From NCBI RefSeq assembly GCF_026210795.1, contig NC_089441.1, positions 3,472,001-3,536,000 of the forward strand: 64,000 nt of DNA. Reading direction: 5' to 3'. Origin of the DNA: Rhizophagus irregularis. Lineage: Eukaryota > Glomeromycota > Glomeromycetes > Glomerales > Glomeraceae. A program made the position numbers and the translations under genes. The notes below the pieces were generated by a model. It saw only the letters and a list, made by a program, of their open reading frames with translations. It made no database searches and was not told where the DNA came from. Positions 42,726 to 49,966 of the stretch are shown piece after piece (position 1 is the first letter of the stretch; each line of letters starts with the position of its first letter).

Positions 42726-43682
42726 ATTAAACTTTACTACTCATTGAAATTATTATAATTTTTAATAAGTAATGATAAAAATTCTTGTGATAATTTGGAT
42801 ATATATTCTAACTTTAATGATAATAAAAATAAGAATAAGGATAATCTAAAAGTTGAAATTGAAATCAATTCAGATATTATATCCATCAAACTAAAATCAA
42901 AGAAAAAAACTATAATTATTAGTATATTTTACTAAAAATAGTTTAATAAATACTTGAATATTATTCTCTAAAAAGTTTATGGTTGATATAATATATAGTT
43001 CCTCTACTTTTCATAAATTTCAATAAGTTCTATATCTTTATTTTCTTTTCATTACTTTACAATTTAACTTACATTATAATCCATCTAACTAATATAAGAA
43101 TTATACATTTTAGAATAAAATGCTAATGACTTAAGTGAATTGATAAGAAAATTGAAAGTATTTACAAGAAAGTATCAAATATTCCAATAATACTCTAAAC
43201 TCTGATATAGAGAAACTTTTTAGCAATTTAAAGTAAGTACAAATTAATGTATAACTTTAAACTGAAAAATGGCAATTTACTAGATTTTAAAATTGATGGA
43301 ATTTTTCAATCTATTAATAATACAGTAGGTTATTTAAATTTAAAATAATAAAATTATTTAATAAATATATTAATATTGATGATTTTTTTCAATATTTAAA
43401 AAATCATATTTGTGAATATTAGGATTAAAATTGTTTATTTAAATTTCTTCAAAATCTTATGATTAGTTTTTCCAAAATTTTACTATAATTTATTATAGTT
43501 TTGGCAAGATTTTAGTAGTTTTGGCATTTATAATAAGTTTTGTTAAATTTTGTTTTTTTTCAGAATTTTACTAATTTTTTAATAAGACTTTTATATTATA
43601 GTTTTGGTAAAGTTCACCATTTTAGTATTTTACCAACTTGCCAAAATCCTTCAGTTTCTTTAGCAACTTTAGCTAGAATATG
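42726..43682. other. AT-rich non-coding stretch
   Basis: No supported gene or repeat border. Some TTTTGGCAAGATTTTAG-like imperfect repeats occur around 43480-43640. Confidence 0.5.
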
Positions 43683-43860
43683 CATTGGTCAAAAACTAAT
43701 ATATTAGGTAACAGTCTAGCAGACATGAAAATTGGATACCTAATATATGTAAGATATGTGTAAATATATATTGTCTACATATCATTTACATATCATATAC
43801 ATATCAGTACCCAATATATATATAATATATATATTTACACAGTACTATTAAGATAGGTTA
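43683..43860. mobile_element. Degenerate palindromic CACTA-like MITE (copy B)
   Basis: Starts CATTGGTCAAAAACTAATAT and keeps GTAAGATATGTGTAAATATA and the ATATCATTTACATATCATAT centre of copy A. The right end is eroded. About 50 bp separate it from copy C. Confidence 0.6.
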
Positions 43861-44487
43861 TCCTATGGCCTAAGGTAAAGTTTACATATAAAACTCTTTA
43901 AAGATCCTACTATCACTGGTCAAAAACTAATATATCGGATAGCAGATATATATCAGATATATACCTGATATGTGTAGTATTTAAGGTTGCTTGCCGAAAC
44001 CTGTTTGGCCTAATGCTGAAAGGTGAAACCTCTTATATAGTGCCGAAACGCCGAAACGCCGAAACTGCGAAACCTGTCAAAATTGCGAAACTGCCGAAAC
44101 ATGCCGAAACCTCTATAATAGGTTTCTCCGTAGTTTCGGCATAGTTTCATAAGATTTGCATATAGTTACGCCAAGTTACACCAATTAATAATATAATTTA
44201 GATGATCAAATAATCTACAGATAAAAGATTAAACTTCAATATTTTACCGTCGTCTTAGTTCTTTTAAGCTTTATCTAGTGTTAGAATTTTCATTTCTAAC
44301 TCCCATATTAATATTATGATATTACACGTTTTTACAGTTTTTTTTTAAGGGGCTTATATTCATTAAAGGAAAATGCGTAACATGCATTTAATAAACCCAA
44401 TTCCGTCATCTCCTTTAACACTGAACTAAAGTTTCTTTTACTTTCTTCCATTTTCTTAATAATAATATTAATAATAAACTGTTTCAA

Positions 44488-46790
44488 ATGACTGATCACA
44501 TAGAAGATTCACCCATTAAAATGAAAAATAGAGGAGGTCGGCCACCTAATAGCATTTGGGAAGATATTAATAAAGGAGAAGCTGTTGGTTCTGGCAAATT
44601 TGCCGCCTCCTGCAAGTACTGTAAGAATACATGGTCACGCGGTGAAGTTTCAAAGCTCGAAGAGCATCTTTCAAACCATTGTCCAGATGCGCCAGCAGCA
44701 GTTGTTAGAAGGTATATGACTAAAGTAATGGAACGGCAAGATAAGTCCAAGTCATCCAAAAAAAGAAAATACTCTGAAGGTCAAAGTAACATGGATGATT
44801 ACCATGATTCAACAGAGCTTAACGAACAAAGATGTACACGAATTAATCGTGCATTAGTTAAATTTTTTATTGCGTGCGGAATTGCGTTTAGAATAGTGGA
44901 ACATTCCTTTTTTATCAATTTTATAAAAGAGCTTAATGCCAGGTACAATATACCAACAAGGGAAGTATTAGTAAATCAACTACTTGAACGTGAATTAGCT
45001 CAAGTGAACTTCAAAGTTAATTCTGAGCTTGAAAAGGAAACGAATTTAACGTTAGGTTTGTTAAATTAAATAGGCTATCATACGTCATTTTTATTTAATC
45101 TTACTTACTATATAATATTAATTTATAATTTAGCCTTTGATGGTTGGACGTCTGGTACACATCGTTCAATTTGGAACTTCATTGTAATGACTCCGTCGCG
45201 TAAAGAATATCTTTATCAACTTTCTGATTTGTCTGAAAATTCGCACACTGCAGAATATCTAGTTACGGTAATTGAAAAGGTTATAGAAGGTATTGGAGAA
45301 GATCGAATATGTGCTGTAGTTTCCGATAATGCGGCCAATGTTCGTAATGCACGAAAAATTATACATGAGAATCATCCAAAGATTGAGAATGTGCGATGCG
45401 TTGCACATTCTATCAATTTAATTGCATGCGACATTGTCGGAAGGAGAAGTTTGGGGAACGTTTATTAAAACGTGTTAATATTTTGACAACCTTTTTTAGA
45501 AGTTCTCATCAGGCTAATGCAAAACTTGCTCAAATAATTAAAGAAAAAGGAATTAGTGGAGGAGGATTAAAATTATATTGCAAGACACGCTGGACTACTG
45601 CTAGTGAATCCGTAAATTCAGTAATAAATTTGGAATCGGCACTAGAAGAAATGGCCAGCGATCACGATAAAGTGCTAACAAATGATAAAATAAAACCGAT
45701 TATTCAATCGAGAAATTTTTTTCAAATTTACGAGTTCTTGGATTTGTTCTGGATCCTCTAAGAAAAGCAGTACTTTCATTAGAATCGAGAAGAGCTACAC
45801 TTGCAGATTGTTTCCTGAGCTTGGCAAGACTTGCAGCTACATTAAAAAAGTTACCCAAATCATTAAATCCTGCATTCCGAAGTCATTGTATCAAAGTAAT
45901 AAATGAAAGATTTGATGAATTCGATGATGATAAGTATATTACTTGTTTTTTATGGATCCCAGATTTAGAAACGCGCCACTTAAAAAATGCGCCACATGAG
46001 AATTATCAAATGTGCAGCTTAATCAGGAAAAATTTAGGTTTCGACTGTTACGAAGCTGAAACTTTATGTGATCAAATACAGAAATATATTAATGAGCAAG
46101 AGCCATTTGACCTAGATATCGGTTTTGCTAAAGATAATCCCGTGAATTGGTGGAAATATATTAATACCGAAGCAGGAACCAGATGTCGCATGAAGAATTG
46201 CAAGTTATCTATTTGCAATATGTCCTAACTCAGCAACTTGCGAACGTGGATTTTCGACTTTAGGATGGCTATTTCATAAACGTCGCTTAAATCTTAATGT
46301 GGATAAACTAGAATCCATGTGCAAATTAATTTTGTATTGGAAATCCAATTCAAAAACTGAACTTGGATTTTATGGAATTGATCAAAAAAAGAATACTCGT
46401 CTTAGTGATGATGAGATCAATATACGTATTGCAGAAGCTTTTGCAGAAAATGACGATGAGGAATATAATGAGGAGCAAGCTTCTACTCAGAGATTAACTA
46501 CAAGCGGCGAAACAATACCCGAAGACAATTGCCGTGTAGTAATCGAAAGTCTATGGATTGATCAATTTGTTAATTTATCGCATGATTCAATTACTAGTGA
46601 AATCGGCGATATTCCAAGAGATATATTGGATGATTCAGATGAAAATAATGCGGAAGATGATGAAGTTGATGATAGTGGTAATAACAAGAAATACCGGAGA
46701 AGGTGACTATGATTATGATATAGATGATGTATTAGGTATGGATGACGGTGATAATAATGACAATAATTATGATGATAATGAGGAATAATA
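44488..46790 (+). pseudogene. hAT transposase with BED zinc finger, recently disabled
   Basis: Exon 1 (44488-45055) opens with a BED zinc finger at residues ~22-65 (C42, C45, H60, H64/C65 in SCKYC ... HLSNHC). A GT-AG intron (45056-45133) leads to AFDGWTSGTHR (first catalytic Asp), VSDNAANVRNA (second Asp), CVAHSINL, CKTRWTT, and the C-terminal dimerisation block SATCERGFSTLGW with the catalytic Glu. An acidic tail follows. Lesions: a frame change near 45440-45460, another in a T run near 45715-45722, and a third frame change plus a TGA near 46170-46200. Apart from these the residues look intact, so the gene died recently. Related elements elsewhere in the genome could still supply a working enzyme; that is inference. 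Confidence 0.88.
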
Positions 46791-46979
46791 ATAATGAGAA
46801 ATAATTACAATAGTTAATCCAATGAGAATTAATTCTAATATCATATGATTTAAATAATGATACTATTTAGGAAATAAATGATGTAATTATGCAGGGCAAA
46901 ATATTCGCGATCAAAGTCCAGTTAACGTATAATTATGCAGGCAATGCAGGCAATTGTAATTTTATATTATATTTTAAAA

Positions 46980-47125
46980 CATTGCAATTTAATTAAGGAA
47001 TAAGGATAAGCATATTATATTTTAAAAATAGTGCAATTTAATTAAGGAATAAGGATAAGCATATTATATTTTAAAAATAGTGCAATTTAATTAAGGAATA
47101 AGGATAAGCATATTATATTAGAATC
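46980..47125. repeat. Triple direct repeat (~48-bp unit) in the hAT element
   Basis: The unit containing GTGCAATTTAATTAAGGAAT followed by AAGGATAAGCATATTATATT occurs three times in a row between the two hAT genes; the first copy reads TTGCAATTT. It looks like replication slippage in the 3' region of the transposase gene. Confidence 0.8.
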
Positions 47126-47457
47126 AATAAGTTTTAAGGACTTCGTTAATTAAATTTATTACATTAGATCAATAAATTTTAAGAACTGCGTTACAAAAAA
47201 AATTTAGAACTGCGTTAATTAAATTTATTACATTAGAATCAAAACTGTGTTTATTTTGTTACAAATACTTTAATTATGTAGAATGTTATTATGTTCGTCA
47301 GTTCATGTTTTAAACATTATAACGAATTTTAAAATTATTATAAATATTATGAAATTTGAATTTTTTTTTCGCAATTCAAAACCAAATTGTATTTTAATTT
47401 TCAAATTGTATTTAATTTTCAAATTTCAAGTTACGAAAAAAATCATAAAAATAAAAA

Positions 47458-48130
47458 ATGGCAGCATTAGTACCTTTTGTCCCACCGCCACCACCAGTAT
47501 TCCAATGGACGATTAACGCAGCTAGGCAATTAATCGCGGAGCGGAAAGCTTACATCGGCAATTCGAAAGAATTGCAAACCGTCATCATGTAAATGCGTGG
47601 ACAATAATAGCAAATAGGGTGTTCGTTGCGACGGGATTTGCAAGCGGCAATTGTAGCAATGCCAAACAAAATGGAATGCCCTCAAACGAGGTTATGAAAA
47701 CCTCAGTAGGATAATAAATAATAATGATGACGACATTCCTATTATAAGCCCAAATAGTTTCGATAGAGCGTGTTTTGCTGATATGAACGATGAATTCTGG
47801 TTACAAACCGGTAATTATTATTAATTATTATTTTAAATTAATTTTATTTAGGCAATTCATTCAATTCATTAATATTTTTATTGGATTTTAGATCTGTTTA
47901 GACGAGAGTATCGACGGCAGCGTCTGCGCATGATTGACGTCGATATGAATATAGATTGCGAAGGGAAAGAAGAAGGTCGCGATCCAGGTGCCGATCGAAG
48001 TAGATCAAGAAGTAGAGATAGAAGACGAGATAGAAGTAGAGATAGAAGACGAGATAGAAGTAGAGATAGAAGATGGGACAGAAGTAGAGATAGAAGAAGA
48101 GGTAGAAGCAGGTCCCCACATAGAAGATAA
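47458..48130 (+). pseudogene. Second gene of the hAT element: SANT/Myb-like plus RS-rich tail, frameshifted
   Basis: From ATG at 47458 the frame reads MAALVPFVPPPPPVFQWTIN and AARQLIAERKAYIGN, slips to FERIANRHHVNAWTIIANRV, and slips again to WNALKRGYENLSRI and FADMNDEFWLQT. An intron (47811-47891) precedes LFRREYRRQRLRMIDVDMN and a tail of SRDRRRDRSRD repeats ending SRSPHRR. The W ... IAN ... W ... WNAL spacing resembles SANT/Myb or MADF DNA-binding folds; the RS-type tail would be strongly basic. Two indels break the frame. A separate DNA-binding accessory gene is familiar in PIF/Harbinger elements but unusual for hAT elements. Function is inferred only from composition and position. Confidence 0.6.
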
Positions 48131-48651
48131 AGATATTATTAAATTTTAATTTTTATTATATTTTTAATCGTGTATTTTATTAGTTTAATATTAAATATTA
48201 TAAAATAAATATTTACATACAAAAAATCATATTGTCTTTAATCTTTATTCTTATAAATTGTTTAAATGCCGAAACTCTAATTAAATCATATAGAAAGTAT
48301 TGCCGAAACGCCGAAACAGTTTCGGCAAGTTACGGCAGTTTCGCGATTTTGATAGGTTTCGCAGTTTCGGCATTTCTTGATGATTTCGCGAAACTAGTTT
48401 CGGCAGTTTCGCGTACGCCATTCTGCCGAAACCCTCCCCCGGGATTTCGGCAAGCGAACCTTAGTAGTATTAATGCTGAAAATCGGGTGACGATATGTGT
48501 ATGATATGTGTAAATATATATATCGTATACGTATCGAATGCGTATGTATATGATATGTAAATGATATGTAGACGATATATATATTTACACATATCTTACA
48601 CACATTAGGTACCCGATTTTCAGCATTAATACTACACATATCAGGTACATA

Positions 48652-48819
48652 CAGTCAAACCTCGATATAGCGAACTCGATATAGTGAATTTTTCAGACAA
48701 CTATAATAAATTTCCCTCGCTATAATGAATTAACCAATCAAATCTCTTAAAATCTTCACTATGTATTATAGCGAAGTTATGGCCCGAACCTGTGGGTTCG
48801 TTATAACAAGAAGTGACTG
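48652..48819. mobile_element. 168-bp Tc1/mariner-type MITE
   Basis: Left CAGTCAAACCTCGATATAGC and right (reverse complement) CAGTCACTTCTTGTTATAAC are terminal inverted repeats, with TA on both flanks (48650-48651 and 48820-48821). It interrupts the right arm of CACTA-like copy C. It has no coding sequence. Confidence 0.8.
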
Positions 48820-48867
48820 TATCGATACCTATCTGCTATCCGATATATTAGTTTTTGACCAGTGTAT

Positions 48868-49019: not shown

Positions 49020-49124
49020 ATTTTAAACATATCAGGGTACCTGATTTTCTGCATTTTTACTACACATATCAGATGTATATCTGATATATATCTGCTACCC
49101 GATATATTAGTTTTTGACTAGTGA
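49020..49124. mobile_element. Right half of a palindromic CACTA-like MITE (copy D)
   Basis: Contains GGGTACCTGATTTTCTGCAT, TACTACACATATCAG and the terminus TTTTTGACTAGTG at about 49124, matching the right arm of copies A and C. The left half is absent. Confidence 0.65.
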
Positions 49125-49966
49125 TGTAAGATCTTTTAATAATATTACAATAAAGTTTACATAAAATAATTACAGTTTAAATTATAATTAATTTAAAAAA
49201 TTGCTTACTTAATATATAAAAAATTAACTTTACTTAATCTAACTTTTAAAGTAATAAATAATAGAAAAATAAATTCTACAAAAATTCCTATTAATAAATT
49301 TTTAAAATGAATTTAAGTATAAAGTAAAGTATTTTATTTGTAAATAATTGGTAATATATATAATTTAATATTTCATTTTATAAGAAGTAAAAAGTGCATT
49401 TAAATTTTTTATATAGATTTATAAAGGATTCCAAAACATCTTTTATTTAACTTACAACCTAGTAAATAGTTTTTGTATAAATTTGTACCAATTGGGCTCA
49501 TCCATATATAATTGGCTCTAGATTGGCTTAAATTTGGATTATTTTTTGCATAAATTTGAGCTAATTTCAAGCCAATAAGCCTGTTTGGTATAAATTTATA
49601 CAAAAACTATTTACTGGGCAAATAATATATAGTAAAATCAATATTGATATTAGAAATACAATTTTACTAACATTAGATTTCTTTTATCAAGATGAATCCA
49701 AATAATAAAATTTTAAAAAATATTTCTATAATATGCAATTCTGGCTAAAAACTTCAATGTGAATTATATTAAAGATATTTGGAATCTTATCCATAAATTT
49801 CTATTTAGATTTACTTTTTACTAGTAATTAATATAATTATTAAATAGATTTAATAATATATAAACAAATGTAATTTATTTATTTAATATCAGTATAATAA
49901 ATAGAATTTTATTGTTATTTCTAATAAACCTTTTTAAATTTATTAAATAAATTTCCAATCTAATTT
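49125..49966. other. AT-rich spacer before the ATP11 3' end
   Basis: No supported gene. A short inverted repeat, TAGTAAATAGTTTTTGTATA (about 49451) against its complement near 49597-49615, brackets 49451-49615 and may be another small foldback element. Confidence 0.45.

Follow-up and report, generated by a model that had tools for sequence, protein, structure and literature searches.

hAT elements are usually considered to be one-gene transposons. The PIF/Harbinger, NuwaI, NuwaII, and Pangu transposons carry a separate Myb/SANT gene (PMC4482050, PMC9179366). The Myb-like protein of Harbinger is described as interacting with the transposase, enabling joint nuclear import, and binding the terminal repeats (PMC9179366). 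In fungi, a TET/JBP dioxygenase gene is common to several DNA transposon lineages, hAT7 included, and has been transmitted between lineages (PMC12730594). Here, I describe a hAT element of Rhizophagus irregularis that carries, next to its transposase gene, a second gene for a protein with a Myb/SANT-like domain and an arginine/serine-rich (RS) tail. It was found in a stretch of 64,000 nucleotides (contig NC_089441.1, positions 3,472,001 to 3,536,000; hereafter the window), in which positions 43982-48463 form one hAT element of 4,482 bp with GTAGTATT flanking each side.

The hAT superfamily is among those that have recently expanded and are expressed in R. irregularis (PMC11075540, PMC8647823). 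The word "Myb" is absent from the main texts of these two surveys, and no such second gene is reported there under that word. In the literature searched, no hAT element was found to carry a second gene of the Myb or SANT type, with subscription journals and Repbase Reports lying outside that search.

The hAT Family Consistently Carries a Myb/SANT-RS Gene

A preliminary description of the window had placed a hAT transposon at 43982..48463 and, on the same strand as the transposase gene, a second gene at 47458-48130. The coordinates of the element proved correct, with an 8-bp target duplication around it and with DUF659 and hAT-dimerisation domains encoded inside. The second gene is also real. 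In the genome (146.7 Mb in 32 contigs), the family is multicopy, and the best 40 of 99 candidates in a DNA search with the second gene are all full-length with 91-100% identity. Thus, the gene is more than a product of chance. A chance open reading frame (ORF) was rejected because the frame, the intron, and the domain are all conserved.

Exon 1 of the second gene (47458..47810, + strand) encodes the Myb/SANT-like domain and a DEFW motif; it is 353 bp long and frameshifted in the window, while it has 352 bp in the open copies. The intron expected from the preliminary description was placed at 47811..47891 (+ strand; 81 bp, GT..AG, phase 1), and exon 2 (47892..48130, + strand) encodes the RS-rich tail. 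If the predicted intron is spliced as its borders imply, the gene encodes 197 amino acids comprising the Myb/SANT-like domain, the DEFW motif, and the tail. The tail, first recognized by its SRDRRRD-type units, consists of 53% R and 15% S. The domain had been called SANT/MADF-like, and only the first half of this label stood. PF13837 (cut-off 27) gave 37.7 bits with the whole protein and 39.9 bits with exon 1 alone, whereas Myb_DNA-bind_3, Myb_DNA-bind_5, and MADF were all below their cut-offs; MADF (PF10545) was rejected with 14 bits for exon 1 against a cut-off of 22. With a profile built from nine sequences, the nearest solved relative was the GT-1 trihelix (PDB 2ebi and 2jmw; residues 16-80, E 1e-4). 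GT-1 is a DNA-binding protein of plants. An alignment of the SANT part used as a query found no relatives in viral contigs and none in a genome contig collection.

The element thus has a separate Myb/SANT gene on the same DNA as its transposase gene, a trait resembling PIF/Harbinger, while the transposase and the 8-bp duplication are of the hAT type, unlike those of PIF/Harbinger, NuwaI, NuwaII, and Pangu. An assignment to the PIF/Harbinger superfamily was rejected, since the domains are of the hAT type, the duplication is 8 bp rather than 2-3 bp, and no Harbinger domain appeared in the Pfam list. In an open copy of the element, L035, the transposase has 740 amino acids encoded by two exons. 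It matches DUF659 (87.9 bits, E 7e-25) and hAT dimerisation PF05699 (23.7 bits, E 4e-5, cut-off 21.4), while the BED finger PF02892 reaches 17.8 bits against a cut-off of 20.6. Together, the 8-bp duplication and PF05699 above its cut-off place the element in the hAT superfamily. Transferred from L035 to the window, exon 1 of the transposase gene (44488..45055, + strand) encodes the BED-like finger and the start of DUF659; exon 2 (45134..46788, + strand), which is frameshifted in the window copy, encodes DUF659, the hAT dimerisation domain, and an acidic tail. Between the two genes lie three 49-bp direct repeats (46972..47119). The number of these repeats differs among copies of the element, with three in the window and two in L035.

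Is the second gene present throughout the family? A search with the transposase half scored the best 40 of 246 candidates. The 30 transposase loci examined (L033-L062) all align into the second gene, at least into its start. Among the stretches examined, the second gene is interrupted or incomplete in L054, L055, L058, and L060. The preliminary description had proposed looking for full copies that lack the second gene, and none of the 30 loci is wholly without it. A larger pairing count compared 73 of 84 transposase matches (11 extra pieces of the same copies were dropped) with 92 second-gene places derived from 152 protein-search matches. Close transposase places were those with 71% identity or more plus the broken window copy, some places being pieces of one copy; at 63 of these 67, a same-strand second gene lies no more than 12 kb downstream. 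All four exceptions are partial matches; in three, a second-gene place follows at 13-16 kb downstream. Thus, the second gene is a fixed part of this hAT family. It was not detected at any of six distant hAT relatives (56-67% identity; among the best 79 of 1,018 transposase candidates), so its gain here, or its loss elsewhere, postdates the divergence from those relatives.

Both genes of the window copy are broken, with a stop after 300 codons in the transposase gene and after 44 codons in the second gene, while other copies are open. Under a strict rule, 9 of 37 distinct copies have an open second gene; one copy is unreadable because it has no splice motif, and L036 fails the rule by its last two residues alone. 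Among the 30 transposase loci, a script demanding exact splice and start motifs found the transposase gene open in 6, the second gene in 8, and both in 3. Among singleton variants relative to the majority codon, the nonsynonymous-to-synonymous ratio (N/S) is 2.78 for the second gene and 2.73 for the transposase gene, near the unconstrained expectations of 2.88 and 2.99, respectively. Variants common to at least three copies have an N/S of 1.0 in each gene (7:7 in the second gene and 13:13 in the transposase gene). The difference between shared and single variants gave p 0.02 for the transposase gene and p 0.005 for the pooled genes (Fisher's test). These patterns lean towards a picture in which a source under selection for its proteins would give rise to dead copies that decay without constraint.

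In the window, the two copies of the target duplication GTAGTATT lie at 43974..43981 and 48464..48471. The left terminal inverted repeat (43982..44005, + strand) begins with TAAGGTTGCTTGCCGAAA, and the right one (48444..48463, - strand) ends with TTTCGGCAAGCGAACCTTA. A left subterminal block (43994..44139) and a right subterminal block (48269..48432) each contain seven CCGAAAC motifs, counted on either strand; all 14 motifs of the element lie within its first 160 bp (7) or last 230 bp (7), with none in the middle. Among 20 copies with both ends available, 16 have an 8-bp target duplication, namely 14 recognized by script (7 or 8 of 8 letters matching) and two, L053/L015 and L059/L021, read from the output. 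The remaining four (L036, L045, L052, and L062, the last being without the left end) have no target duplication.

A Cousin Gene in a Second Mobile Element

A protein search with the second gene (best 150 of 270 candidates) also gave a group of genes at 34-42% identity. A member read in L063 encodes 184 amino acids with 38% identity over 103 residues to the second gene. This cousin has the layout of the second gene, namely a MAAL start, PF13837 (42.7 bits for the exon), DEFW, a phase-1 intron at the same place (with an acceptor that could shift by a few bases), and then DRR-YEYR followed by an RS tail. MADF was below the cut-off in the cousin as well (18.1 bits against 22). Between the SANT exons of the second gene and the cousin, the nonsynonymous difference (pN) is 0.47 and the synonymous difference (pS) is 0.87, the latter being saturated.

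Where does the cousin reside? After short fragments and rows of the hAT family were dropped, 52 cousin places were compared with 92 of 152 matches to a particular large ORF, represented by L064. In 43 of the 52, an ORF of this type lies downstream on the same strand, usually at 1.6-2.9 kb and at most at 6.6 kb; the other 9 are without it. A DNA query of 3,152 bp, which runs through the cousin gene into the beginning of the L064 ORF, gave 8 unbroken rows and many more in two pieces among the best 40 of 269 candidates. Since these rows span both, the cousin gene and the L064 ORF share one repeated unit. A further reading frame, acidic and lysine-rich, was seen upstream of the cousin SANT-RS gene (L063:949-2045, - strand); since the repeated unit begins at or before L063:2050, this frame may belong to the cousin element as a third gene. 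The homologue in this second multicopy element, together with the many copies of the hAT element, rules out another possibility raised in the preliminary description, that a host gene was captured at this locus alone.

The nature of the L064 ORF was assessed from about 600 codons. The ORF is taken as not hAT because it has no hAT domains in this length and no hAT transposase matches are listed at such places. Pfam found no match in pieces of the ORF or in its joined exons except a weak BAH. The tnp2 (PF02992) and Plavaka (PF18759) profiles had no match at the L064 place among the matches listed, which were partly compared. By eye, the residues of the ORF follow a D..C(2)C arrangement that resembles the one described for the CACTA/Plavaka clade in PMC12730594. 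A KDZ identity was rejected, since all 25 genome candidates for PF18758 were scored and none lies beside the part of L064 that was read. One exon of the ORF has a weak match of 52 residues in a viral contig (L065), which lies inside an ORF read by eye as an integrase and was taken as chance.

More distant relatives were sought with PF13837 (best 150 of 246 candidates in the genome), and many of the matches belong to the repeated units described above. Among 63 other PF13837 places, 8 are 2.1-4.9 kb away from relatives of the L064 ORF on the opposite strand, where about 0.7 are expected (1.05% of the genome is within reach), and 55 are not. Moreover, 11 of 70 PF13837 places lie within 8 kb of a match to the tnp2 (CACTA) transposase, compared with about 0.8 expected. 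In seven of these 11, the SANT gene lies 2.36-2.44 kb downstream of the transposase match, in the same orientation. This count used 99 of 162 tnp2 matches, and the SANT genes there are known by their PF13837 match alone. The seven places, at about 2.4 kb, are likely to represent another two-gene transposon family. Examples of tnp2/PF13837 pairs are C6:5697180/5700035, C8:2288850/2286264, C27:1488961/1486377, and C2:3228328/3231197.

Since a homologue resides in a different mobile element, the second gene looks like an accessory exchanged between transposon types, and a swap of the gene between them may have taken place. That a hAT element carries a candidate Myb/SANT-RS partner whose homologue lies in another element suggests that the Harbinger-type two-gene design arose or spread more than once. 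In contrast to the Harbinger case, the nearest relative of the second gene that was found belongs to another element type in the same genome rather than to an identifiable Harbinger element. Nor do the descriptions of PIF/Harbinger-type systems in PMC4482050 and PMC9179366 mention an RS tail, as far as these sources were covered. The situation resembles that of the fungal TET/JBP carriers in that an accessory gene is found in several DNA transposon lineages, hAT included. It differs in that the gene is Myb/SANT-RS rather than a dioxygenase and the duplications are 8 bp rather than 7 bp; neither Rhizophagus nor any word beginning with Glomer- occurs in the main text of that paper (PMC12730594). 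I tentatively consider, at somewhat less than even confidence, that Myb/SANT-RS genes form a helper module that fungal DNA transposons pass around, with one gene lineage serving hAT, the element that appears CACTA/Plavaka-like by eye, and, through more distant PF13837 relatives, CACTA. If so, DNA-binding partners would be exchangeable between transposase superfamilies, and different families might share targets or aid each other's movement. At this locus, movement of a DNA-binding accessory gene from one transposon type to another can be put to the test. Some of this genome's many Myb/SANT-like genes would then be transposon cargo rather than host regulators.

Possible Roles of the Second Gene

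What does the SANT-RS protein do? By analogy with Harbinger, I slightly favor the interpretation that this is a two-gene hAT family in which the second gene encodes a co-mobile Myb/SANT-RS accessory, a DNA-binding partner of the transposase. The SANT part would most likely bind DNA, be it the element ends, the element's own promoter, or target chromatin. The basic Arg/Ser tail may direct the protein to the nucleus and make contacts with proteins or nucleic acids. The protein might thus help the transposase to reach DNA, as the Myb-like protein of Harbinger is reported to do.

Several points weigh against this interpretation. Since no second gene is detectable in the six distant hAT relatives, the gene is not a requirement of hAT transposition. 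Binding of the CCGAAAC repeats could be the work of the BED-type transposase itself, in which case the promoter or silencing may be what the SANT protein acts on. No constraint is visible among variants present in two copies only (N/S 3.0 in the second gene and 3.5 in the transposase gene), and the comparison of shared and single variants is not significant for the second gene alone (p 0.11). Finally, the function of extra ORFs in Harbinger-type elements is called still unknown in PMC4482050.

A less probable alternative, at about one half of the weight of an even bet, is that the second gene encodes an anti-silencing or self-activating factor, which would bind the promoter or silenced copies and sustain transcription outside the transposition complex. 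A co-mobile accessory gene common to different element types fits this role equally well. TET/JBP genes on fungal transposons, hAT included, were proposed to aid escape from methylation (PMC12730594), and many hAT copies of R. irregularis have low methylation (PMC8647823). Furthermore, end binding may already be done by the transposase: BED-type hAT proteins recognise subterminal repeats that often contain CGG, the sole such protein tested from R. irregularis having preferred AT-rich motifs (PMC8097297), and CCGAAAC is confined to the ends here. Against this role, no enzyme or methylation-related domain was found in the SANT-RS protein, in which PF13837 alone passes its cut-off.

It is improbable that the RS tail acts in RNA processing, either in the splicing of the element's intron-bearing mRNAs or in delivery to splicing bodies, a destination that the preliminary description had suggested. 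The R and S content of the tail, its retention in the cousin, and the presence of an intron in both genes of the element would suit such a role, but Pfam found no RNA-binding domain, and the RS composition equally fits a basic tail for nuclear localisation or DNA contact. That the second gene is a functionless passenger after a chance capture is similarly improbable: 28 of the 37 copies are not open under the strict rule, but the transposase gene is equally decayed (24 of 30 not open), the frame, intron, and RS tail persist at 38% identity in a second element while silent sites are saturated, and the shared variants lean conservative.

Small Elements and Repeats Around the Locus

The first 24 bp of the hAT element (43982..44005) also match the end of a 247-bp miniature inverted-repeat transposable element (MITE) in L002. 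This non-autonomous element (L002:1272-1518) has ends resembling those of the hAT family (TAAGGTTGCTTG and GGCAAGCAACCCTTA) and an 8-bp duplication, GTCTCGAT, and it might be mobilised by the transposase of this family. A decayed stretch at 43431-43596 of the window, about 400 bp upstream of the hAT element, is 78% identical to the MITE (E 1e-33).

An Rfam search of the window gave no matches, and a scan with a bacterial promoter model, which has no meaning in a fungus, gave 9 hits where 8.1 are expected from shuffled sequence. The hAT element is surrounded by inverted repeats of 46-68 nt with 90-94% complementarity (43912-43979 with 49058-49125 and 43726-43803 with 48543-48622); thus, it seems to have been inserted into another repeat. 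A short element-like stretch at 48649-48822 has 27-nt inverted ends, ATACAGTCAAACCTCGATATAGCGAAC, and I presume from its general likeness that it is perhaps a Tc1/mariner-like MITE.

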